Shown here piece by piece: positions 4,797-32,957 of a DNA stretch of 32,957 bases. How positions within the stretch are numbered: position 1 is the first letter of the stretch; every line of letters starts with the position of its first letter. The notes under the pieces are model-generated. The model was not told the DNA's origin, did not search any database, and worked only from the letters and a program-made list of their open reading frames with translations. The stretch spans positions 1 through 32,957 of the IMG/VR virus record IMGVR_UViG_3300030106_002108, one strand, 5' to 3'. Origin of the DNA: a virus. Position numbers and translations under genes: made by a program.

Positions 4797-5159
4797 TTAA
4801 AATTTTGACAACACATTATCTAATTCTTGCTTCGATTGTTTCAAAATTTTCTCCAAACGAGCCAAATCTACGCTACCAATCCCTATAATTTTATCAATTT
4901 CGTTCCTCAAAGCCTTTATTCTAGTCAAATCAAAGGGAGAAAAGTCCATTTCTGGCTTTTCGCCACTCGAAATAGCTATTAAGTGCTCAATCGCAAGCTC
5001 AATAGCGATAGGAACCTTCTTTTGATTGGAAATATAGAAGCTATACATCCTTAAACTAATCCCTAAAAGGTCTGCCATCTTCTCTTGTGTGATATTTAAC
5101 AGTTTTCTAGCCTTTTCAATCGCAGAACCATCCATTTTGCTATAAGAATGTCGTTTCAT
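4797..5159 (-). CDS. XRE-like helix-turn-helix transcriptional regulator
   Basis: A 120-residue protein. Residues ~14-50 form a Cro/C1-like HTH: ARKLLNITQEKMADLLGIS is helix 2, turn and the start of recognition helix 3, followed by the loop NQKKVP. The C-terminal ~45 residues look helical, with heptad-like spacing (IDKIIGIGSVDLARLEKIL), probably for dimerisation. The start ATG at 5159 has GAGGTG upstream and lies 2 nt after the stop of the methyltransferase gene, so the two are cotranscribed. As a phage regulator in an early-type operon, it is a candidate binder of the palindromes described elsewhere in this window; the target is unknown. Confidence 0.8.
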   Translation of the reverse strand: MKRHSYSKMDGSAIEKARKLLNITQEKMADLLGISLRMYSFYISNQKKVPIAIELAIEHLIAISSGEKPEMDFSPFDLTRIKALRNEIDKIIGIGSVDLARLEKILKQSKQELDNVLSKF

Positions 5160-5161
5160 TA

Positions 5162-5692
5162 TTACACCTCGTTACCCCATGAATCCCAACCTAGTTTTCT
5201 ATCTCTTGCAAACATTTCTAGTTTTGGTGATGGTGACATTTCATCTACTACATCATAAAAACATTTTGGTTTTGTAGAGTGTTTACTAGGTGCATTTGTA
5301 TGAACCCAATTTAACTTTCCACATTTTAAAAACTTTTGCATTGGTTTTTGATAAAAACCTAATAAACAAAATTCTGTAGCGAATTTATAAGCAAAATTAG
5401 GTGTCATGCCATTATGCTTTGTCCAAACAAGCGTTAAGTGATAATTAACACCCCAACTTTCTAAAACATTAAAAGTTTCTCTTAAAAATTTATTAGTTGT
5501 CCAACAATAAACATGACAACCTAAATTAGCTATTTTATATAAAGGCATTTGTTTTATTTCGTCTAAAGACATAGTTTTATAATCTAGTTTTTTTGCTTGG
5601 TTTTTTCTTCTAATGTTTTTACCAGACATAGAAATGTCCCAAGGTGGGTCTAAAACAATTGTGTTGTATTTTTTATCTGGAAAATTATTCAT
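5162..5692 (-). CDS. MT-A70 family DNA N6-adenine methyltransferase
   Basis: 176 residues from the chosen ATG at 5692. The hallmark catalytic motif DPPW is at residues 15-18, preceded by the strand YNTIVL; further family features are CHVYCWTTNKFL and the FATEFCLLGF segment. Members of this family transfer a methyl group from S-adenosylmethionine to N6 of adenine, in phages usually in DNA. An in-frame ATG at 5728 exists, but it overlaps the upstream gene by 34 nt. The ATG at 5692 lies 2 nt past that gene's stop and has GAAGA upstream, so I prefer it. Likely roles are restriction evasion or marking of regulatory sites; target specificity cannot be read from the sequence. Confidence 0.9.
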   Translation of the reverse strand: MNNFPDKKYNTIVLDPPWDISMSGKNIRRKNQAKKLDYKTMSLDEIKQMPLYKIANLGCHVYCWTTNKFLRETFNVLESWGVNYHLTLVWTKHNGMTPNFAYKFATEFCLLGFYQKPMQKFLKCGKLNWVHTNAPSKHSTKPKCFYDVVDEMSPSPKLEMFARDRKLGWDSWGNEV

Positions 5693-5694
5693 TA

Positions 5695-5895
5695 TTACGT
5701 ATCTTCTTTCAAAATTATCTCCTGACATAGTGGTTTTACGTGATAAACACTAGGATTTCTAAACAAAATGTTCGCTTGCCTTACAGCAACAGCTAAACAA
5801 GTGTCGGAATTGTCGTGAAACTCCCAGTTTCTAGACACAACCATGCAACTTTCAGCATAAACACTTGAGCAAATCAGTATAATAGGCATCCACAT
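5695..5895 (-). CDS. Small putative secreted Cys-containing protein
   Basis: A short protein of 64-66 residues. The longer frame opens at a TTG (5910), but the better starts are ATG 5895 or ATG 5889; AAAGG sits 7 nt before the latter. The N-terminus (MPIILICSSVYAES) is a short hydrophobic segment ending in a signal-peptidase-like VYA-E site, so the mature protein may be periplasmic. Four Cys follow or overlap the signal region. I recognise no family. It is the first gene of the operon with the methyltransferase and HTH genes, behind a TTGACA promoter. Its real status rests on the tight stop-start spacing with the methyltransferase gene. Confidence 0.6.
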   Translation of the reverse strand: MWMPIILICSSVYAESCMVVSRNWEFHDNSDTCLAVAVRQANILFRNPSVYHVKPLCQEIILKEDT

Positions 5896-5929: not shown

Positions 5930-6133
5930 ATATTTTGTGATTGTTTGTGGAAAACTTGGTAAAACCTACTGCCTTGCTTGCTTGCATATTGGGGGGCTGC
6001 CCCATAACCCAAAAACCCGACCGAGAAACCTGCCAGATTCTTAGGGTACCTGTAGTACTTGCGAACAATTGTTCGGACTGTAGCCCCACTTATTATTGGG
6101 CTTTGGTCTATCCAGGGGTAATCATTGCATAAA
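5930..6133 (+). other. Intergenic region with hairpins and a perfect 14-bp palindrome
   Basis: I see no credible gene here. The stretch holds TGGGG/CCCCA and AGCCC/GGGCT inverted repeats (about 5990-6005 and 6081-6102), the perfect palindrome CGAACAATTGTTCG (6062-6075) and GGTAATCATTGCAT (6117-6130). It is noticeably GC-richer than the flanks and ends at a strong terminator, so a small structured RNA is possible but unproven. Confidence 0.45.
6062..6075. promoter_or_regulatory. Perfect palindrome CGAACAATTGTTCG (putative operator)
   Basis: A 14-bp perfect inverted repeat, one of two exact copies in the window (the other is at 27967-27980); 7521-7533 matches 13 of 14 positions. The GAAC-N4-GTTC geometry resembles LexA boxes of Gram-positive bacteria, but the many copies and partial copies argue against a simple SOS box. 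Confidence 0.5.
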
Positions 6134-6155
6134 AAAAGGGGCGCAAGCCCCTTTT
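6134..6155 (-). terminator. Rho-independent terminator (bidirectional)
   Basis: Perfect 9-bp stem AAAAGGGGC/GCCCCTTTT with a GCAA tetraloop. On the minus strand the stem runs into seven T residues, so it should end transcription of the amidoligase gene whose stop is 22 nt away. On the plus strand the tail TTTTCTCT is also usable. Confidence 0.9.
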
Positions 6156-6177: not shown

Positions 6178-7353
6178 TCAAGAATTAAAACCTCTAGCGT
6201 TTAATCTATTATAAATATTATCATCTAATGATGCGAATATACTATCAGATGCAATTCTGTTAGGTGGTAATAATTGTTCGGTGCTTTCGGATTGTTCGGT
6301 CGTAGTATATGTTTCTGGCATCTCATAACCACCTAGATCAAATAAACCATTACTTGCGCCATAAATATGAGAATAGTATTGCTGAGTATGAGTCGTTACA
6401 GATTGCTGACCTAACCGATTTCTTAATTCTGATATTCTTGCTCTAACATTTTCTGGCGTGGTATCACCTAATGCTATTTGCAATTCTCTTGTTGTTGCGC
6501 CACCTGATCTACTCATTAATCGCATCATTATATTCTTTGCAGTACCTTGTCTAAAAACATCATTGGCATCAGGTCTATTTACTGTTGTTTCAACCATAGT
6601 TGCTTCAGAATTGGTTATTCTGTTATTGATAGTATGAGTAAACAAGTTAACTAAAAAAGCGCACCAATCGTAAATTTTTTGAGCGTTGATAGTGCCGTGA
6701 TGTTGTCTAAATTCTATTGTTTCTTTATCGTTTCTTAAATTGTCTAGATTAATATTAGTAAATTTTGATCTAGTATATCTAGCAATCTGACCATAGCTAG
6801 TCGCAGAATTTAAATCATCTAGCCAATTATGGTTATGTTGCGTTGGATGATAAGCGTATCTATTTGACCATCTAGATGGAGCAATCATATTTTTTACTGC
6901 TTCTATTTGATTATTGTATCTAGAAATAACATCTTGAATAGCTAACAATGGTATTTGTCTAGTATAATCAATATATCTTTTAACTTCGGATGGCTCTTCT
7001 TTAAACTTTTTAAATGATAACTCATTAAATTGATAGTGTGATGTATCGGCTAAAATTGGTCTAGTGCCTATATGTACATGTAAACCGCACTTTTTATTAA
7101 CAGATACATTTAATCTAGTTAATTCATTTTCGATATTTTCCAGTATATTATGAAAGTAAGCGTTTACAATCATAGGTGATATATTAATCTCGATCATATT
7201 TGATCCACTATCTGTTGGCGTGGCATCATATTTGATCTCTAAATTATTAGTTAATTCTGCATTTAAAGAATTTTTTATCTCATTTAAGCTTTTTTCTGTT
7301 AAAAATTCGATTTCAACGCTTGCTGTAATTGTATCTTGTGTAAAATAAGTCAT
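6178..7353 (-). CDS. Phage amidoligase family protein (COOH-NH2 ligase)
   Basis: 391 residues from the ATG at 7353, which has AAGG 11 nt upstream; a TTG at 7383 would add 10 residues. Family signatures are visible in order: VEIEF near the N-terminus (E14, E16), a D-rich segment ending in IEINISP (about residues 41-60), CGLHVHIGTR (89-98) and IEFRQHHGT (213-221) followed by IYDWCAFLVNLF. These match the glutamine-synthetase-fold amidoligases, predicted to form ATP-dependent amide bonds between carboxyl and amino groups of peptides, proteins or small metabolites. A C-terminal extension (about 276-320, TTRELQIALGDTTPENVRAR) looks like a winged-helix segment, which could tether the enzyme to DNA or a partner. 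The substrate is unknown. A cyclotransferase-like gene lies 2 kb away. Confidence 0.85.
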   Translation of the reverse strand: MTYFTQDTITASVEIEFLTEKSLNEIKNSLNAELTNNLEIKYDATPTDSGSNMIEINISPMIVNAYFHNILENIENELTRLNVSVNKKCGLHVHIGTRPILADTSHYQFNELSFKKFKEEPSEVKRYIDYTRQIPLLAIQDVISRYNNQIEAVKNMIAPSRWSNRYAYHPTQHNHNWLDDLNSATSYGQIARYTRSKFTNINLDNLRNDKETIEFRQHHGTINAQKIYDWCAFLVNLFTHTINNRITNSEATMVETTVNRPDANDVFRQGTAKNIMMRLMSRSGGATTRELQIALGDTTPENVRARISELRNRLGQQSVTTHTQQYYSHIYGASNGLFDLGGYEMPETYTTTEQSESTEQLLPPNRIASDSIFASLDDNIYNRLNARGFNS

Positions 7354-7388
7354 TGTTTTTATTACCTTTTTTGCTAATTTCAATTTAA

Positions 7389-7403
7389 TAGGGGCATCCC
7401 CTA
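7389..7403 (-). promoter_or_regulatory. Short leader hairpin upstream of amidoligase gene
   Basis: A perfect 6-bp stem TAGGGG/CCCCTA with a 3-nt loop lies between the promoter and the amidoligase start. It may stabilise the 5' end of the mRNA; nothing more can be said. Confidence 0.35.
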
Positions 7404-7406
7404 ACT

Positions 7407-7437
7407 ATTATATTACCAGAAAATACCATATATACAA
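7407..7437 (-). promoter_or_regulatory. Promoter for amidoligase gene with WTGGTA-N4-HTGGTA operator
   Basis: Minus strand: -35 TTGTAT (7437-7432) and -10 TAATAT (7415-7410, 16-nt spacer) or TATAAT (7412-7407, 19-nt spacer). Between them lies the direct repeat ATGGTATTTTCTGGTA (7429-7414), a member of the five-copy operator family. It sits about 60 nt upstream of the amidoligase ATG. Confidence 0.55.
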
Positions 7438-7751
7438 GGGTTTTTTAACAATTGTTCAATTTTTTTTTTATTATATAGAACAAGGTATTTTTTTCAGAAA
7501 AAAAAATAGCTATTTTTCTTGAACAATTGTTCGGGTTTATTCAATTTCATTTTTTCTAATTTTTTCTTTTAAAAAAAATCTAGTTTTTTTCTTTTGAATT
7601 TTTCTAAGTTTTTTTTGCCAATTTTTTGAAACTGAAAAAATTTTGCTTTTTTTTATTTTGAGCATTTTTTTTGTGTGGTGATTTTTTTGTTGTGGGGTTC
7701 GGATTAGATGAAGCCCGATCCCGAACCCGAACCCCGATTAGTATCCCGAGT
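7438..7751. other. Non-coding T-rich tract with palindromes and CCCGA cluster
   Basis: About 310 bases without a gene. From 7440 to about 7690 the plus strand is a run of T-tracts (many of 6-9 T) with strong T/A strand asymmetry. Two copies of the palindrome core lie inside: AACAATTGTTC (7447-7457) and GAACAATTGTTCG (7521-7533). From about 7697 the sequence switches abruptly to a cluster of CCCGA words (7714-7770). A-tracts on the minus strand could bend DNA upstream of the amidoligase promoter, or the region could be an AT-rich unwinding element. Confidence 0.5.
7521..7533. promoter_or_regulatory. Palindrome copy GAACAATTGTTCG
   Basis: Thirteen of the 14 positions of the CGAACAATTGTTCG palindrome, in the T-rich gap 84 nt upstream of the amidoligase promoter. 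Confidence 0.45.
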
Positions 7752-7835
7752 TTACATAGCAAGCCCGATTACTAATATTGCGTAAATAAGTGCCATTAAA
7801 GCGATACTTTGAACGAATGCAAAGAAATATAACAT
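7752..7835 (-). CDS. 27-residue single-pass membrane peptide
   Basis: ATG at 7835 overlaps the stop of the preceding gene (TAATG), with AGGTGG 5 nt upstream of the start. The product is almost entirely hydrophobic (MLYFFAFVQSIALMALIYAI, ending in GLAM) and long enough for one membrane span. The stop-start overlap and good ribosome-binding site support translation despite the small size. I recognise no family; tiny membrane peptides in phages act as holin-like proteins or modulators of membrane enzymes, but nothing here decides between these. Confidence 0.6.
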   Translation of the reverse strand: MLYFFAFVQSIALMALIYAILVIGLAM

Positions 7836-8134
7836 TATAACCACCTTTGTTTAATGGCGTATCCGTCACCATAAAGTTCCCGAGACAAGTTATAAACTAA
7901 GTTCCAACCCATATCCATACCGCAACCCGATACACCGACAGAGTTTGTTTTATCTTTGTACGTGTACCCAAGAAGTTTGGCTATGTTATAAGATTGATTT
8001 AATAAATCTTCGCCAGATTTAACAATAATGCTAATGTGTCTATACATTCCAGATGCTGACACTTGCCTTGTTATTGTGTGGACAGTATCGCCCTTTTTGA
8101 TTTGGTTTTTTAAAACTTCTTTTATTTCTTCCAT
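7835..8134 (-). CDS. Conserved phage hypothetical protein (SGMYRHI / GCGMDMG type)
   Basis: 99 residues, ATG at 8134 with AAAGGAG 9 nt upstream. The pattern (DTVHTITRQVSASGMYRHIS, then VGVSGCGMDMGWNLVYNLS and a C-terminal KQRWL) is one I recognise from many phage and actinobacterial hypothetical proteins; no function is established to my knowledge. The invariant GCGMDMG stretch suggests a structural or binding site. It is followed by the 27-residue membrane peptide through a TAATG overlap and lies behind a promoter with the direct-repeat operator, so it is probably an early gene. Confidence 0.8.
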   Translation of the reverse strand: MEEIKEVLKNQIKKGDTVHTITRQVSASGMYRHISIIVKSGEDLLNQSYNIAKLLGYTYKDKTNSVGVSGCGMDMGWNLVYNLSRELYGDGYAIKQRWL

Positions 8135-8158
8135 TAGTTTTCTCCTTTATTTCGCTAA

Positions 8159-8193
8159 TACCATAAATTACCATATATATTATATAGTGTCAA
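8159..8193 (-). promoter_or_regulatory. Promoter with ATGGTA-N4-ATGGTA operator, upstream of the 99-residue gene
   Basis: Minus strand: -35 TTGACA (8193-8188), 17-nt spacer, -10 TAATTT (8170-8165). The direct repeat ATGGTAATTTATGGTA (8174-8159) overlaps the -10 exactly as in the plus-strand promoter at 10021; the two promoters share a 20-nt identical block. Confidence 0.65.
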
Positions 8194-8224
8194 ATACTTT
8201 TTTTAAAAATAAAAAAAATAAAAG

Positions 8225-8415
8225 CCGAACAATTGTGCGTGTTATGTATGTGGAAGGAGTTCGACTGAAGGCTCAGCTGGGAAGGAGGCTCAACTAACCT
8301 CCCTCCCCCCGAACAATTGTGCGTGTTTTCAATACTGGTATGACAATGGCAACAACGGGAAATGCTTCCGATTTTGGAGAACTGGAGGCGAGCCGCAATC
8401 CCGAACAATTGTGCT
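8225..8415 (+). repeat. Three direct repeats CCGAACAATTGTGC
   Basis: Copies at 8225-8238, 8309-8322 and 8401-8414; the first two extend to CCGAACAATTGTGCGTGTT (19 nt identical). All are in one orientation and differ from the perfect palindrome by a G in the right arm (GTGCG instead of GTTCG). The intervening sequences are unrelated to each other. Confidence 0.8.
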
Positions 8416-8438
8416 TATTTCAAAGCCCGAATCCCGAG
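8298..8438 (+). pseudogene. Orphan relic of a TGNATDFGDLT-type tail repeat
   Basis: The plus-strand frame with codon starts at multiples of 3 reads FNTGMTMATTGNASDFGELE (8328-8387) then ASRN. It closely matches the repeat consensus (YITIASTGNATDFGDLT) of the minus-strand proteins at 31387-32957. The open stretch begins after a TAA at 8295 and ends at a TGA at 8436-8438. It is about one half-repeat long, sits on the opposite strand, and is spelled with GC-richer codons (ACGGGAAATGCTTCC, GAGGCGAGCCGC), so the resemblance is at protein rather than DNA level. I infer a fragment of a foreign repeat gene, not a recent copy from this genome. Confidence 0.5.
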
Positions 8439-8513
8439 TGCTGACCCCGATCCCCCTTATTTGAAGCCTTTTTCTACGCCCTCCATAGAAAAAACCGAGT
8501 TAATCCCGAACAT

Positions 8514-9023
8514 TTACTGAACTGTATTATCCTCTACTATCAGAATAGGCTCCTTCTCTTCTGGCGTTACATCCTTCATGCGTTCCTGTGCAATCTTCAT
8601 AAAATCGCCAAGTTTCTCTAACAATTGTTCACGATTCATATTATCAAGATTTTCGTGCTGAACATGGCTTTTATTTACCAGTAGTCCAGTCGCCTTCAGT
8701 CTTAGCTCTTCAGCCCGAATTGCATCCCCGAATTTGTTGAGTGATAATGCTTTATCCCGAATGTGTTGTAAATCCCGAACAGATTTAGCCACAGTGACCC
8801 CGAATTTACTTTCAAGCTCATGTCGCATCTCTTCGAGTCGTTCTTGGATGATAGGTCTATTTAGGAGCCTTACAGCGTCAACTGTTGGGTTAGCGTACCC
8901 ACAAGCTCTCGCTGATGCTGTCTGCGTCATATCTTTATGCACATAGTTATCAAGGAAGTCTTGCTGTTGTTTTGTTATTCTCCTGTTGTTGCCATGTGTT
9001 GACTTTTCTCCGAACTTTGGCAT
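8514..9023 (-). CDS. terS: Terminase small subunit
   Basis: 169 residues from the ATG at 9023; an ATG at 9062 would add 13 residues, but AGTAGGAG sits 10 nt before 9023, so I prefer it. Residues ~15-75 show the DNA-binding helical domain typical of small terminases (ITKQQQDFLDNYV, TQTASARACGYANPTVDAVR, LLNRPIIQERLEEMR), followed by a long helical oligomerisation region and an acidic tail. The small subunit recognises the packaging site and recruits the large subunit, which is not in this window. Odd features: the CGAACAATT motif lies between its Shine-Dalgarno and start codon, and the gene is rich in TTCGG words. The iteron cluster immediately upstream could include its binding site. Confidence 0.8.
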   Translation of the reverse strand: MPKFGEKSTHGNNRRITKQQQDFLDNYVHKDMTQTASARACGYANPTVDAVRLLNRPIIQERLEEMRHELESKFGVTVAKSVRDLQHIRDKALSLNKFGDAIRAEELRLKATGLLVNKSHVQHENLDNMNREQLLEKLGDFMKIAQERMKDVTPEEKEPILIVEDNTVQ

Positions 9024-9062
9024 CCGAACAATTCTCCTACTTTGTTGCCTCCCAGAAAACAT

Positions 9063-9348
9063 AGACTATGAACTGCTGTAAATCAAGTGGGTTGATTGGG
9101 TGGTGTGGTGGGGTTAGTACACCCCACACCATACCCCTGTAAGGGGTGTAGTACACTGTAGTAAATAGTTTGTTTAAAATCAATAACTTACAGCAAAAAC
9201 TTAACTATAGTATGCCCTAAACTGTACAACTGTAGTAACCGAACAATTCCCTTATAAATAAGGGGTTTGCGAACTACAGTGTGCCGAACTACAGTGTACT
9301 GTAGTTTGTAGTTGTAGTTCATCCGAACAATTTATCGGCTTTTATGGC
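9063..9348. other. Non-coding region upstream of terS: hairpins, 8-mer cluster, motif copies
   Basis: No gene seen. Contents in order: a G-rich imperfect hairpin (about 9097-9130), a short ACCCC/GGGGT hairpin (9133-9147), five copies of the 8-mer ACTACAGT/ACTGTAGT between 9155 and 9305, and two CGAACAATT motifs (9240-9248 and 9324-9332). Its position next to the terminase small subunit makes a packaging or replication site plausible. Confidence 0.55.
9155..9305. repeat. Iteron-like cluster of ACTACAGT / ACTGTAGT
   Basis: ACTGTAGT at 9155-9162, 9229-9236 and 9298-9305; ACTACAGT at 9273-9280 and 9288-9295. The last pair forms a perfect 8-bp inverted repeat around GT. CGAACTACAGTGT is directly repeated at 9270-9282 and 9285-9297 (15-bp period). 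Confidence 0.8.
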
Positions 9349-9386
9349 AAAAAAAACCCCAGTAAGATTTAGATATTACTGGGGTT
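9349..9386 (-). terminator. Rho-independent terminator after the cyclotransferase-like gene
   Basis: Perfect 11-bp stem AACCCCAGTAA/TTACTGGGGTT (9355-9365 with 9376-9386) and a 10-nt loop. On the minus strand it is followed by a run of T, so it should end transcription of the gene whose stop is at 9436. Confidence 0.92.
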
Positions 9387-9435
9387 AAGTTGTACCTTTA
9401 CCGAGTGAATAATAAAGGTATGGAGAAAACTATGA

Positions 9436-9942
9436 TTATGATGTTTTAGGATACCACCATTTACCTTTTCTGTCACCAAGTTTATCTGGGACATAGTTTT
9501 GCATCACAGTTTCATTATTAGTAGCATGATCCCTAGCTTTTTCCAAGAACGATAAGCTAAGACCGAAGTCACGATAACCCTCATCAATCGTATGATAATA
9601 AAAGCTTGATGGTCTACGAATGTCGCTATAATTCATCTGATAGGTCATAAATGGTTTATCTTCTGAATAGTATTCCATACCTATATAGATACGATCATAT
9701 AAACCACCATCAACCCCCTCATAATGATCTAGTGCTTCTATACACCGATCTGTCAGGTGCCACATACCCACAGGTATAGCATTGCCCTTTTCGTATTCTA
9801 TGTCAGCTACTCCACGAAAGACTAGCTTATAATCTGGCAGATAGAATCCACCCATAGGAATAGCATCTGGGCAACGAGATGACATCTGGCTAACATTTAA
9901 GTTAGAACCATACGCCAAGTATAATGTATGATGTTTTTGCAT
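9436..9942 (-). CDS. Gamma-glutamylcyclotransferase-like (AIG2/GGCT fold) protein
   Basis: 168 residues, ATG at 9942 with AAGGAGG 7-8 nt upstream. The diagnostic YGSN motif is at residues 11-14 (YLAYGSNLN), and the predicted catalytic Glu is E75 in ALDHYEGVDGG, followed by LYDR; length is normal for the family. Enzymes of this fold release 5-oxoproline from gamma-glutamyl-amine compounds. It has its own TTGACA promoter and strong terminator, so it is a single-gene unit. Known families of phage and bacterial amidoligases are associated with this fold; the amidoligase at 6178-7353 is the obvious partner. It could reverse or trim gamma-glutamyl bonds that enzyme makes, but the substrate is not known. 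Confidence 0.85.
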   Translation of the reverse strand: MQKHHTLYLAYGSNLNVSQMSSRCPDAIPMGGFYLPDYKLVFRGVADIEYEKGNAIPVGMWHLTDRCIEALDHYEGVDGGLYDRIYIGMEYYSEDKPFMTYQMNYSDIRRPSSFYYHTIDEGYRDFGLSLSFLEKARDHATNNETVMQNYVPDKLGDRKGKWWYPKTS

Positions 9943-9977: not shown

Positions 9978-10006
9978 TATATATACGCAATCATTACATA
10001 TGTCAA
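9978..10006 (-). promoter_or_regulatory. Promoter for the cyclotransferase-like gene
   Basis: Minus strand: -35 TTGACA (10006-10001), 17-nt spacer, -10 TATATA (9983-9978). The spacer contains TGTAATGATTGCG (9999-9987), the same motif as in the promoter at 5901-5929. It stands back to back with the plus-strand promoter at 10021, 15 nt apart. Confidence 0.7.
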
Positions 10007-10079: not shown

Positions 10080-10556
10080 ATGAAACTAGAACTTAAAAGT
10101 ATACAGTACAGTAGCTTTGCATCTCAAGAAACATCTTGTTATCAAGCAAAGCTTTATGTTGATGGCGAGCCTTTTGCCACAGTAGGAAATGAGGGATGTG
10201 GTGGTTGCGATTATCAGCATTCTCTTACTAAACAAGACAAAGCGTTCTATGATAAGTTAGAAGAAATTAATACTTATCTTAAAACTCTACCAAAAGTTAA
10301 AAGTCCTTGGTGTGATAATGACGAATTTGATGTTGATCTTGAAATTTGGTGTAGTGAGCAACTTAGTAGATGGAAATGCTCTAAAACCCTTAAACGTAAT
10401 TTAAATAAAGGTTCAATGATACAAGATGCTAATGGTGAATTATATCATTGGAAAAAACATTTTGCATCTGATGTAATTTTAAAGAATTACCCAAAAGCAG
10501 TTATTCTTAATGATTTACCTTTTGAAAAAGCCTTAACTATTTTTATGGAGAACTAA
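10080..10556 (+). CDS. Hypothetical phage protein, first gene of plus-strand operon
   Basis: 158 residues, ATG at 10080 with AAGGAG 7-8 nt upstream. The N-terminal half looks like a small beta-rich domain (LKSIQYSSFASQETSCYQAK then VDGEPFATVGNEGCGGCDYQ), and the C-terminal half is mixed alpha/beta with several Trp and Cys residues (EIWCSEQLSRWKCSKTLKRN). I have a sense of related phage hypothetical proteins with the same opening pattern, but no function. The Gly/Cys-rich GCGGC segment could bind metal, though the Cys spacing is not a standard zinc motif. Confidence 0.75.
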   Translation: MKLELKSIQYSSFASQETSCYQAKLYVDGEPFATVGNEGCGGCDYQHSLTKQDKAFYDKLEEINTYLKTLPKVKSPWCDNDEFDVDLEIWCSEQLSRWKCSKTLKRNLNKGSMIQDANGELYHWKKHFASDVILKNYPKAVILNDLPFEKALTIFMEN

Positions 10557-12769: not shown

Positions 12770-14956
12770 TTAATTGACATTATCTCTTGCAGTTGTGGGT
12801 ATGTACTCACCTCTACTTAATGAACCATCTTCAACACCCAACCAAACCCTTCTGCCTTGTCCAGATAGATTATATTTGGCAATTCTGCCACTTCTTTGCA
12901 GATGCTGACAGTAAGTATTAAGAGTAGATTGCTCCAGATTACGCAATACTTCGGGAGCATCTGGTTCTTCAAGCCGAACAATTATAGAGTTTGTATCGCC
13001 CATTTGTGTCAAAGCTCTGCCTTCCTCCTCACATTCACGAATCCAATCGTATAGCCTATCTACACGCATATCCATTTCAGAACCCGAATGTATTGACGAT
13101 AATTGTTCGGATTTATCCTCCAGTAATCCTGTAAACATATCCCGAATGAAGTGCTTTATACCCCGATCAGCTGGGCCATTGGACTTCACAACTGCACCAT
13201 CAAAGAACCTATTTCTATGGTATTCTATGTTCATAATGTCTGCCATTTTCTTACCGACTTTAGGACTTACACCCCATACTGCATAGGCAAAACGAACACC
13301 ATCAACCAACGCTGACGTACCCCGAATAAGATTTCTTGCTTCTTCTGGTGTTTTTGGTGGCTCTGTGTCCTTAACTTTAGCCATATGATGACACAACAGG
13401 ACTGTGGCACCTGTTTCCGAAGCAACTTTAGCCATTAAACTCATCAGAGCAGCCCCTGCTGCTGGATCTGCATTAACATCAGCATGAACAAACGAAGCTA
13501 ATGGATCAAATATAATAAGCTTCAGGTTTTTAATCTGCAATAATTGTTCGTAATACTTATCGAACTCCTCCCCACTGTGATAGCTCTTGTCCGAACCTTG
13601 TTGCATAATAGGAAACACCCCACCATAATTAGGCAAAGGTACGATCTTCATATCATGCTCATAATTAAACCTATCGCCCGAAGGATCAAGCCTAGTTACC
13701 CTTCTGTGTATTTCAGCTTCATCATCCTCTGCTGTAAAGATTACAGTATTACCGAACTCATTAACAACACCACCGAAAGATGTCTGCAATGGTTTCCCCG
13801 AAGCTATCTTCATAGCTAAATCTAATGTCATCATACCCTTACCAGAATCACCCGCAGCTGCGAATAAAGCAGGCACTCCCAGAGGCATGATGTTACCAAT
13901 CAAGAACTTTTGTTCGGGTGCATTATGGTCAAAACGAGATACTAATAGCGAATCATCCAGTAAATTGACAGACTTCTGTGCCTTATGTGAAGCATCATTT
14001 AAGAACTCTCGAACATTAAAGTTTTCTAATATAGCATCAAAAGCATCCCACTTCTCAGGTTTCCCGATTGGTGGTGTTAGCATAGTTACTGATTTAGCGT
14101 TAGCTTGCAAAGACAACTGCTGTACAAGCTCTGCAACCCTCTTGCCCGATTTGTCATGGTCAGGCCATATAATAACTTCTTTGCCGTTGAGAGGCGAAAA
14201 ATCGTAGTTAGGAGCAGAATTTCTGGATAACATCCCCGCTCCACCCATATGACAAGTAGCAGTAAATCCCATTTGGTTAAGAGCATCTGCACACTTTTCA
14301 CCTTCTACCCATATAATACGATCAGATGAAATAATGTTCGGTATGTTATATAAAGGTCTAATCTCTGGCATTTTTGGTGTCGGATTGTTAGGTACATACT
14401 GCCTAAACTCCTTTTTAGGCTTCCCATGTGTATCTGTTATGATGTCACCATTGGCATCACGAACATTATATCTCCGAACAATTGCTATAGTTTCGCCATC
14501 AGCAGATAAATAAGTATGCTCACCATCATGGGGTGTATTAATGTCGTATCGCTGTGTAAGTGCCTGATTAAATGGATTTGTTGGTGTATACTTCTCCGAA
14601 TCCCGAACAATTACCTTATCCTCCCCTAGATATTGAGAGAAGTAATCCTTAACTTCTGGTAGAGTCATACCCCGACCCTCCATCATAATCTTTACAATAC
14701 CACCTACACCTTCACCTCCATTAAAGTCTGTGCCTTGCATGAAGTGTGGGCCGGGTGTTATGTCTATTTTTAATGAACTTCCCTCTTCACCCCGAAGTGA
14801 ACCCAACATAAATTGGGTACCTCTTATTTTACCATTCGGATAAGTTTGTTTTAAAACATCTACCTGTACTGAAACAGGAACGCTTTCACTAATTTTATTG
14901 ACTAATTCTGTAGGTGTAACACTATATTTAGTCTTGTCAAATGATAGAACACGCAT
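12770..14956 (-). CDS. TOPRIM-helicase (primase/RepA-like replicative helicase)
   Basis: 728 residues from the ATG at 14956 (AAGG 9 nt upstream); a TTG at 15037 would add 27 residues and overlap the nuclease gene. Two domains are visible: a TOPRIM domain with EGEKCADAL (EGE at 218-220) and WPDHDKSG (DHD at 266-268), and a RecA-fold helicase domain with Walker A AAAGDSGKG (366-374), the segment FTAEDDEAEIHRRV, a Walker B-like LIIFDPLASF and VLLCHHMAK. It should unwind DNA at the fork and perhaps prime synthesis, although I see no clear zinc-binding primase motif at the N-terminus. It is the last gene of the long replication operon. The coding sequence contains six CGAACAATT or AATTGTTCG motifs and many TTCGG words. 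Confidence 0.85.
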   Translation of the reverse strand: MRVLSFDKTKYSVTPTELVNKISESVPVSVQVDVLKQTYPNGKIRGTQFMLGSLRGEEGSSLKIDITPGPHFMQGTDFNGGEGVGGIVKIMMEGRGMTLPEVKDYFSQYLGEDKVIVRDSEKYTPTNPFNQALTQRYDINTPHDGEHTYLSADGETIAIVRRYNVRDANGDIITDTHGKPKKEFRQYVPNNPTPKMPEIRPLYNIPNIISSDRIIWVEGEKCADALNQMGFTATCHMGGAGMLSRNSAPNYDFSPLNGKEVIIWPDHDKSGKRVAELVQQLSLQANAKSVTMLTPPIGKPEKWDAFDAILENFNVREFLNDASHKAQKSVNLLDDSLLVSRFDHNAPEQKFLIGNIMPLGVPALFAAAGDSGKGMMTLDLAMKIASGKPLQTSFGGVVNEFGNTVIFTAEDDEAEIHRRVTRLDPSGDRFNYEHDMKIVPLPNYGGVFPIMQQGSDKSYHSGEEFDKYYEQLLQIKNLKLIIFDPLASFVHADVNADPAAGAALMSLMAKVASETGATVLLCHHMAKVKDTEPPKTPEEARNLIRGTSALVDGVRFAYAVWGVSPKVGKKMADIMNIEYHRNRFFDGAVVKSNGPADRGIKHFIRDMFTGLLEDKSEQLSSIHSGSEMDMRVDRLYDWIRECEEEGRALTQMGDTNSIIVRLEEPDAPEVLRNLEQSTLNTYCQHLQRSGRIAKYNLSGQGRRVWLGVEDGSLSRGEYIPTTARDNVN

Positions 14957-15024
14957 TATATTGTACCTTATAACCTTTTTTACTTCATTGGGGTGATAAC
15001 TCTTGCCTGTGTTGTCACCCTTTT

Positions 15025-15783
15025 TTATTGCCAACAAGTGTTTTGATATTCACACCATTTACAAGTCATGTAATCCCTATTGTGTGCTATTCTTGGTAAC
15101 ATACTAGAAGATTGTACTGACATAATAATATCAGCTGCCCGATCACTCATTTTTTGAGCTAAGTGTTTATCGAACTTTACAAGCTCATAGTATATCTCAC
15201 TTGTATTTTTGTTTACCACTGTAAATAGAGCTGGGTTCTCTGTTAGCTCCATATAAGCTTGATAGACAGCCACTTGAGCTGCATATGTAGCATTTGTTTT
15301 AGCCATTCCATTTCTGCAAAACTCCCTGAATTTCTTCTCATTTGCACTCTTACACTCCCATAACATAGGATATTCAAGATCAACAGAACCCGAACTACCA
15401 CATATGACACCATCAATGTGCCCTCTGATTTTACCATCAGCTATCGAAAATCCAAATTGTTCGCCATTTTTATCCTCCGTTCTTAAATCAAATCCACTTT
15501 GTCTTAACCAATCTGCCATTTGATCCTCTATTGAATGACCAAACTGAAAGATCCTAAGTGTTTGTGCTGAAAAATCTCTTTCTTCATCTATGTCTACTCC
15601 CATAAACCTGTATTGTATTTTTCTTGCACACTCTTCACCTAAAGAAGATCCACCTAAATAATCTCTTCTTTTCTTTTGTTTATTAGCGTTAACAATAGCT
15701 TTATCTACTGCTAATCCTATTTGATTAATCTCCTTAGAAAGGTATCCCTGCTGATGGAGATTTACGACCTGTCCAACTTTCAT
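15025..15783 (-). CDS. Cas4/RecB-like PD-(D/E)XK nuclease with likely Fe-S cluster
   Basis: 252 residues. Nuclease motifs in order: GHSIED (82-87), GHIDG (121-125, catalytic D124), WECKS (142-146, E143 and K145) and QVAVYQAY (170-177). One Cys near the N-terminus (C52 in GEECARK) and three at the C-terminus (C241, C244, C250 in CKWCEYQNTC) match the four-Cys iron-sulfur arrangement of Cas4 and AddB nucleases. It probably resects DNA ends to single strands for the neighbouring annealing ATPase. The start overlaps the preceding gene by 50 nt. There are no CRISPR genes here, so a recombination role is more likely than spacer acquisition. Confidence 0.88.
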   Translation of the reverse strand: MKVGQVVNLHQQGYLSKEINQIGLAVDKAIVNANKQKKRRDYLGGSSLGEECARKIQYRFMGVDIDEERDFSAQTLRIFQFGHSIEDQMADWLRQSGFDLRTEDKNGEQFGFSIADGKIRGHIDGVICGSSGSVDLEYPMLWECKSANEKKFREFCRNGMAKTNATYAAQVAVYQAYMELTENPALFTVVNKNTSEIYYELVKFDKHLAQKMSDRAADIIMSVQSSSMLPRIAHNRDYMTCKWCEYQNTCWQ

Positions 15784-31386: not shown

Positions 31387-32439
31387 TTATTGTTGAGATG
31401 CCACTGAGCTTGCTGTTCCTGCTAACTCACTTGGAGTATTAGTTAAATTACCAAAATCAGTTGCATTACCAGTAGAGCCTATTGTGATATAATCTATAGT
31501 ATTTTCTCTACTACTACTACTATTTACACCACCTGCAAAACACCCCCTAGTAGAATTAGATACCCCACCTGCTAAGTCTTCTCTAGCTACAGTAAGATCT
31601 CCAAAATCAGTCGCATTACCAGTTGAAGCTATCGTAACATATTCCATAGTATTTATTCTGGAAGCTGAACTAGTATTACCACCACCATTAACTAACCTTG
31701 TAGCACTTGCAACTGCTGCAAGAGATTTTGTCGCTGTTGTAAGATCACCAAAATCAGTACCATTACCAGTTGAAGAAATAGTAAAGTATTCTATTACATT
31801 ACTTCTACTACCAGTATTACCACCTGTTGCAACAGCTCTTGTAGTACTAGCAGCTGCACCTAACAAATTTTTTTCTTGAGTTAAATCCCCAAAGTCAGTA
31901 GCATTTCCTGTTGAAGCGATAGTAATATATTCAACAGTTTCTAAAAACTCATCACTAAATTGATTGCCACCTATCTGATTTAAACCTCTTGTATTACTAG
32001 CACATGCTGGCATTCTAAGAGTTGCTACTGTAAGATTGCCAAAATCAGTAGCATTACCAGTTGAAGCAAAAGTAATATAATCTATAACATTTGTGTGTGT
32101 ATTACTTGATAATTCTTTTCCTCCTGAAAACACACCTCTAGTATTACTACCACAAGCACTTAGACCACTTCTACTCTCTGTAAGATCTCCAAAGTCAGTA
32201 GCATCTCCAGTAGATGAAATATCAATGTATTGAATTACATTTACAACAGAACCTGTATCACCACCTGCAAAAACACCTCTAGGGGCTGCATTACCTGCTG
32301 TAGGCCAAAGACTTTGTTTATTTAACAAAAGTTGTTCATCCGAAGTAAAAACACCATTACCTGAAGTACTCGCATAATTATTAGAAGGAATAACCTGTGA
32401 TTCATCTGCTGTTAATAATCCACCTAAGTATCTTGCCAT
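31387..32439 (-). CDS. Repeat protein with TGNATDFGDLT repeats (propeller-like, putative receptor binding)
   Basis: 350 residues from the ATG at 32439 (GGAGG 10 nt upstream; the frame extends further but overlaps the previous gene). An N-terminal ~60-residue non-repeated part (MARYLGGLLTADESQVIPSN) is followed by six repeats of about 46-51 residues, each with a strand such as YITIASTGNATDFGDLT, a variable loop and a (S/T)-x-TRG-x-x-x-GG strand. This kelch-like layout suggests a beta-propeller that could bind glycans or a host receptor. The conserved cores and divergent loops are what one expects of a tail adhesin. The previous gene carries the same repeats. Confidence 0.75.
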   Translation of the reverse strand: MARYLGGLLTADESQVIPSNNYASTSGNGVFTSDEQLLLNKQSLWPTAGNAAPRGVFAGGDTGSVVNVIQYIDISSTGDATDFGDLTESRSGLSACGSNTRGVFSGGKELSSNTHTNVIDYITFASTGNATDFGNLTVATLRMPACASNTRGLNQIGGNQFSDEFLETVEYITIASTGNATDFGDLTQEKNLLGAAASTTRAVATGGNTGSRSNVIEYFTISSTGNGTDFGDLTTATKSLAAVASATRLVNGGGNTSSASRINTMEYVTIASTGNATDFGDLTVAREDLAGGVSNSTRGCFAGGVNSSSSRENTIDYITIGSTGNATDFGNLTNTPSELAGTASSVASQQ

Positions 32440-32957
32440 TAAGATAATCCTCCATGAGTAGCAGATAAAGCTGCACAATTTCCTGCATTTGTTGTTAAAT
32501 CACCCCAATCTGAACTAGACCCACTTGTACCCATTGTAAAAAAACTTACCTCTTGATAACCACTTGTTGTAGTATCATATCCACCTAAGGCAATCCCTCT
32601 TGTTGTATTACCAGATTGTGCTCCATCAACAGTATCGTAAGTTAAATCACCAAAATCTGAAGCATTTCCAGTTGAAGCTATTGTTATATATTGGATGTGA
32701 TTTGTAGAGGAACCACCTGTAGTATAACCATAAGTTCCAGAAGAACATATACCTGAATTAGGAGTTGAAACTGCAACATTTAAATTACCAAAATCAGTTA
32801 AATTACCCGTTGAAGCTATCGTAAAATAATCCATTACATTTTGTGCAGGACTTCCTATAGTTGTTTGATAACCACCAGTAAAAACACCCCTTGTCGTACT
32901 ACAAGTACCTGTTTGTCCAGATATATTACTATAAGAGGTATCACCAAAGTCAGTAGA
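32439..32957 (-). CDS. Second TGNATDFGDLT repeat protein, partial (runs off right edge)
   Basis: The frame is open to the window edge (at least 172 residues); the ATG at 32834 is internal, because repeat sequence (TDFGD, TTRGVFTGGY) continues upstream of it. At least four repeats of the same family as the downstream gene are seen, the last degenerate (SSSDWGDLT), followed by a short tail ending ATHGGLS. The stop overlaps the next start (TAATG), so the two repeat proteins are cotranslated. The start and any virion-attachment domain lie outside the window. Confidence 0.75.
   Translation of the reverse strand, partial: STDFGDTSYSNISGQTGTCSTTRGVFTGGYQTTIGSPAQNVMDYFTIASTGNLTDFGNLNVAVSTPNSGICSSGTYGYTTGGSSTNHIQYITIASTGNASDFGDLTYDTVDGAQSGNTTRGIALGGYDTTTSGYQEVSFFTMGTSGSSSDWGDLTTNAGNCAALSATHGGLS

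Follow-up and report, generated by a model that had tools for sequence, protein, structure and literature searches.

A marine phage amidoligase with a winged-helix-like tail, linked to a gamma-glutamylcyclotransferase-like protein

Introduction

Phages and fungi reportedly possess gene pairs of an amidoligase (Amidoligase_2, PF12224) and an AIG2 protein, as described by Iyer et al. in 2009. Such pairs with a gamma-glutamylcyclotransferase (GGCT) are already known in UFV-P2 and other LUZ24-like phages, in Arthrobacter cluster AL, in Tn6164 and in C. clostridioforme prophages, and named examples are gp41/gp45 of Bacillus phage 035JT001 and gp96/97 of Arthrobacter phage Kovu. Peptidoglycan modification and superinfection exclusion were proposed as the role of a larger podoviral cassette which includes both families (PMC5498523). 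Phage-ZRK32 encodes an amidoligase, a glutamine amidotransferase, a glutathione synthase and a GGCT (PMC10945688). The role of this widespread pair has been guessed since 2009, and the literature found contains no experimental demonstration on the enzymes. Here the pair is analyzed in a marine phage. The window, meaning the whole stretch of DNA analyzed, is the linear, incomplete IMG/VR virus record IMGVR_UViG_3300030106_002108 of 32,957 bases, representing a partial genome. A preliminary description, made from its letters only, had pointed to the two enzymes and called their association a known theme, which agrees with the presence of the same pair in several published phage groups.

The window pair resembles the known Amidoligase_2/AIG2 pairs in having the same two families close together with their catalytic residues kept. 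It differs in the winged-helix tail of its amidoligase, which is absent from the known amidoligases, and in the Arthrobacter pairs a glutamine amidotransferase adjoins the two genes. The podoviral cassette (LUZ24, PaP3, tf, RIO-1, PSA-HP1, phiEco32) shares amidoligase and GGCT, short-tailed phages and the proposed superinfection exclusion, but the window holds a two-gene version arranged around the terminase small subunit gene (terS), and no glutamine amidotransferase, ATP-grasp or second ligase family was found in it. The pair itself is already known, and the marine subfamily to which it belongs, with an amidoligase fused to a winged helix-turn-helix (wHTH) domain, looks new. The winged-helix fusion of the amidoligase, the conserved order GGCT–terS–amidoligase and the modular exchange of the ligase, or of its catalytic domain alone, appear new.

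Results and Discussion

Family, fold and catalytic residues of the two enzymes

The two enzymes are encoded as follows.

6178..7353, minus strand: wHTH-fused amidoligase with predicted GS/GCS-type carboxylate-amine ligase fold, 391 residues (PF12224, phrog_2443, AlphaFold2 (AF2) model, Foldseek)
6280..6570, minus strand: winged-helix-like C-terminal domain of the amidoligase, residues 262-358 (DUF3489 in relatives, AF2 model and Foldseek)
9436..9942, minus strand: GGCT/AIG2-like protein, 168 residues, with YGSN loop and catalytic Glu75 in LDHYEG (phrog_2520, PF06094, profile match to human GGCT)

The amidoligase scored 35.2 bits against PF12224, above the gathering score (cut-off 22), and matched phrog_2443 with an E-value of 4e-10. 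PF12224 was also matched by all 29 members of the alignment of its relatives. The CGLHVH and IEFRQHHGT motifs, from which an amidoligase had been recognized earlier, are both present together with an N-terminal VEIEF, in agreement with the two profiles. A longer open reading frame opens at TTG 7383, but ATG 7353 is most likely the start, because the close relative L010 has no start codon in the upstream stretch and the alignment begins at MTY. In a set of 70 sequences, E14, E16, D43, E55, H92, H94, R161, E214, R216 and K226 were kept in every homologue with a residue at the position, so the putative catalytic residues are not lost in relatives. The AF2 model (pLDDT 89.7) retrieved only YbdK, PafA, Dop, glutamine synthetase (GS) and gamma-glutamylmethylamide synthetase (GmaS) structures among its top 20 Foldseek matches in PDB, with weak E-values (best 4e-3) and a probability of 1.00. 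The predicted fold is thus that of the GS/GCS COOH-NH2 ligases with conserved Glu/His/Arg. The likeness to the YbdK, PafA-Dop and glutamine synthetase superfamily lies in this predicted fold and in the active-site Glu/His/Arg pattern, but the sequence identity is only about 10%, and a sequence search of known structures with the amidoligase gave no match.

The GGCT-like protein matched phrog_2520 (2e-22) and PF06094 (23.5 bits, cut-off 22.8). Its profile matched human GGCT with 7e-20, and comparison by sequence with the human protein (2PN7) aligned both the YGSN loop and the catalytic Glu, which is kept in 42 of the 42 sampled GGCT partners. This supports the cyclotransferase-like nature proposed from the YGSN motif, and the predicted activity would be release of 5-oxoproline from gamma-glutamyl amines. 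Profile search of both proteins and structure prediction of the amidoligase therefore placed them in the families named in the preliminary description and in no unrelated one. PADLOC profiles of known defence systems and NCBIfam profiles matched neither of them. To judge from their sequences, neither protein appears to be decaying.

Linkage and gene order

Fetched loci were searched with profiles of both proteins, a partner being counted within 5 kb and flanks being taken as adequate when at least 4 kb was present on both sides of the gene. A GGCT partner was found in 14/14 adequately flanked amidoligase loci and an amidoligase partner in 30/32 adequately flanked GGCT loci, counts which include near-duplicates and rest on seed alignments taken from pair-bearing loci. 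Removing redundancy at 90% identity left 80 loci with the pair. Among amidoligase loci of bacterial genomes, by comparison, only 4/42 had a GGCT nearby. Co-occurrence, which was to be surveyed in related phages according to the preliminary description, is thus far above background. Relatives in IMG/VR were missed when the window amidoligase was scanned as a single protein, and an alignment of lineage members was required to find them.

The pairs showed three arrangements: overlapping or adjacent on the same strand, apart on the same strand, and apart on opposite strands. The winged-helix tail was present in all 70 non-adjacent pairs versus 11 of the 63 adjacent pairs. A terS homologous to that of the window separated the two enzymes in 31 of 36 non-redundant wHTH loci; in the other loci, a terS belonging to a different family would have escaped detection.

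The winged-helix-like tail

Residues 262-358 of the amidoligase form a separate domain. The corresponding domain of the relatives matched DUF3489 in 15/29 cases at E<=0.1 (best 4.8e-9), along with HTH families, and the isolated tail domain of L189 reached 39.9 bits against a Pfam cut-off of 29.5. The AF2 model of the window tail (pLDDT 79.8) retrieved mostly winged-helix proteins (MarR, LexA, BirA), all with E>0.5, because of which the models support the winged-helix fold type and not a function. The winged-helix-like C-terminus noticed earlier therefore holds for the subfamily, by matches in relatives and by the model, while the window copy alone gives a weak signal. Directly upstream of the amidoligase, about a dozen of the related loci encode a small DUF3489-like protein that stands alone. 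Examples upstream of wHTH-fused amidoligases are L108:7714-7995, L144:7481-7957 and L170:3860-4192.

Tblastn over 50,697 phage records gave matches mainly over the ligase domain, a third member finding none, and no wHTH-fused amidoligase was found in the phage isolate records searched. The fused form is known here chiefly from metagenomic viral contigs, and it was also found on a contig of a Rhodobacteraceae metagenome-assembled genome (L251). A text search of open-licence papers that combined amidoligase, winged helix and phage returned nothing.

Exchange of ligase alleles

L010 is closely related to the window phage, with protein identities of 95% for GGCT, 98% for terS, 98% for Mom and 98.5% for primase. 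The DNA similarity, 91-94% in both flanks, breaks off at the start codon of the ligase (7346) and returns at its stop (6180). The amidoligases share only 34% protein identity and their winged helices 39%. A second pair of loci, L231 and L244, showed 99% identity in GGCT, 98.6% in terS and 93% in the winged helix, but 48-53% in the ligase part. Among 29 independent locus pairs, conservation of the amidoligase was below that of GGCT in 27 (sign test p=1.6e-6) and below that of terS in all 29. Replacement through recombination accounts for the abrupt cases, and the others may be due to ordinary fast divergence. This swapping of ligase alleles had been overlooked in the preliminary description. 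An MT-A70 methyltransferase gene (5162-5693 or 5162-5728, minus strand) adjoining the exchanged amidoligase is present in the window and cleanly gone from L010, marking a variable site.

Gene layout and regulatory elements

The other features of the region are listed below.

6134..6155, minus strand: intrinsic terminator 3' of the amidoligase, 12-bp hairpin and U-run, -17.6 kcal/mol, z -4.9
7414..7430, minus strand: phage promoter element TATGGTAWTTTNTGGTA ahead of the amidoligase, with 3 sites in the window and kept in L010
7752..7835, minus strand: 27-residue membrane peptide MLYFFAFVQSIALMALIYAILVIGLAM, by translation, conserved in L010
7835..8134, minus strand: conserved 99-residue protein, phrog_12365 (4e-18)
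8514..9062, minus strand: terS, likely start ATG 9023, PF03592 (1.3e-6) and phrog_51 (9e-12)
9352..9386, minus strand: intrinsic terminator 3' of GGCT, CCCCAGTAA..TTACTGGGGTTTTTTTT, z -4.8
about 9978..10006, minus strand: putative sigma70-type promoter of GGCT, TTGACA-N17-TATATA, by consensus match only

The order of transcription on the minus strand is GGCT, terminator, terS, 99-residue gene, 27-residue peptide, amidoligase and terminator. The spacing of about 2 kb between the two enzymes (2.05 kb) and their own promoters and strong terminators were correctly described before, as were the coordinates. The membrane peptide and the 99-residue protein lie between them as described, and both are conserved in L010, but the terS gene lying there had been missed. 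By translation, the start codon of the peptide overlaps the stop of the 99-residue gene, whose product was found in 7/36 wHTH-amidoligase loci.

The element TATGGTAWTTTNTGGTA occurs three times in the window versus about 0.2 expected by shuffling, and also in L010, L096 and L097. Its window sites at 7430(-), 8175(-) and 10039(+) are ahead of the amidoligase, the 99-residue gene and the gene at 10080(+), respectively. The palindrome AACAATTGTT was found 8 times versus 0.1 expected, at 6064, 7447, 7522, 8620, 11209, 20629, 25268 and 27969, and it recurs in relatives. It is possibly the operator of a conserved Xre-like protein encoded at 4797-5159. This protein is a better candidate reader of AACAATTGTT than the amidoligase tail, since the palindromes are genome-wide and equally present in L010 despite only 39% wHTH identity. 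The tail as reader is weakened accordingly, the palindromes being kept where the tail differs.

A Mom-family DNA modification gene is present in the same phage at 11236-11892, minus strand (PF25680, 5e-42). A link of the pair to Mom or MT-A70 DNA modification as a rule was rejected, as Mom occurred in 1/80 and MT-A70 in 0/80 pair-bearing loci and, compared with L010, the MT-A70 gene of the window is inserted.

Possible roles of the pair

We favour, tentatively and a little short of even confidence, the reading that amidoligase and GGCT make up one functional enzyme pair for phage-host or phage-phage conflict. The families of a ligase and a cyclotransferase imply amide formation and gamma-glutamyl turnover. 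The amidoligase would be an ATP-dependent carboxylate-amine ligase joining an amino acid to an amine of the target; glutamate, linked by its gamma-carboxyl, is the most likely amino acid. Candidate substrates listed in the preliminary description are a host protein, a peptidoglycan precursor, a glutathione-like molecule and DNA. GGCT would free gamma-glutamyl groups as 5-oxoproline and thereby remove such products or keep them turning over, so that the ligase may form the gamma-glutamyl amide which GGCT removes. The winged-helix tail may place the ligase at DNA or autoregulate it. The catalytic domain would diversify by allele exchange, as expected if the target or host recognition varies, and this diversification suggests conflict with the host or rival phages. 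GGCT, at 95-99% identity, does not follow the exchange of the ligase, so it cannot be tied to a single ligase allele and must act on a feature shared by all alleles, a gamma-glutamyl group, or else on a metabolite of the host. A more specific version is rather unlikely: the GS-fold ligase, brought to DNA by its winged helix, would couple amino acids to the DNA or to host proteins bound there, GGCT would undo this, and swappable ligase domains would let phages change the modification or its target as part of an arms race.

Several observations weigh against this pairing. The amidoligase reaches only low TM-scores, about 0.3, against solved structures, and the window tail alone is marginal against DUF3489 (E=0.035). 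No target DNA was found for the tail. The element TATGGTAWTTTNTGGTA is absent ahead of GGCT, so this phage promoter element is not common to the two enzymes. A metabolite of the host may instead be what GGCT, constant despite ligase exchange, acts on. Separate promoters and terminators would also suit chance neighbours in a variable region, but this is highly improbable, contradicted as it is by the linkage in 14/14 and 30/32 loci, in divergent phages and in three arrangements.

Modification of the cell envelope is doubtful but deserves serious weight. The ligase would alter peptidoglycan peptides through additional or atypical amide links, GGCT would degrade or recycle gamma-glutamyl peptides, so that other phages are excluded. 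This is the published hypothesis for the podoviral cassette of the same two families (PMC5498523, PMC11945000, PMC10580990), and diversifying ligase alleles suit superinfection exclusion. A DNA-binding-like tail is unexpected here, and the winged helix speaks against a role confined to the cell wall. Glutamine amidotransferase (PF13522) was matched in 0/27 whole related records of 29-104 kb, while 14/14 control genomes were positive; none was present among the annotated proteins of the window, a partial genome, and no ATP-grasp or second ligase family was found among these proteins either. The second ligase PF14395 was matched in 0/27 related records, but no control genome matched either.

The lack of an amidotransferase in the related records and the wHTH tail, left unexplained, also count against auxiliary metabolism, in which the pair would channel ammonia or glutamate and glutathione-type gamma-glutamyl compounds for phage replication. 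This role, claimed for Phage-ZRK32 (PMC10945688), is improbable, exchange confined to the catalytic domain being unusual for metabolic enzymes. The tail would also fit a bifunctional ligase/repressor similar to BirA, whose wHTH would bind an operator while its ligase domain would sense or produce a metabolite. Such a protein would regulate its own gene and nearby ones, and its main product would be a small molecule. BirA is among the weak Foldseek matches of the tail, the stand-alone DUF3489-like proteins lie directly upstream of the ligase, and AACAATTGTT palindromes are situated just upstream of the ligase promoter. The genome-wide distribution of AACAATTGTT and its equal presence in L010 speak against it, and we regard this role as quite unlikely. 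BirA also has its ligase fused to a winged helix, but with an unrelated ligase fold and the opposite domain order, making it an analogy only.

The substrate is directly testable with near-isogenic alleles, as the natural swaps (window/L010 and L231/L244) differ only in the ligase or its catalytic domain. The winged-helix tail adds an option of nucleic-acid targeting outside the prevailing cell-wall hypothesis.

Other sequence features of the window

TCGGG is strongly biased between strands, with 40 copies on the minus strand and 6 on the plus strand versus a total of about 12 expected. The bias is window-wide, for example at 7700-9350 and 12950-15400 (minus strand), and bias of this type is shared by L010, L096, L097 and L020. 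AATTGTTCGG occurs 15 times in the window versus 0.1 expected. The otherwise noncoding 8135-8513 contains at 8319-8444 (plus strand) the fragment MTMATTGNASDFGELEAS, which is like the tail-repeat unit ITIASTGNATDFGDL of 31387-32957.

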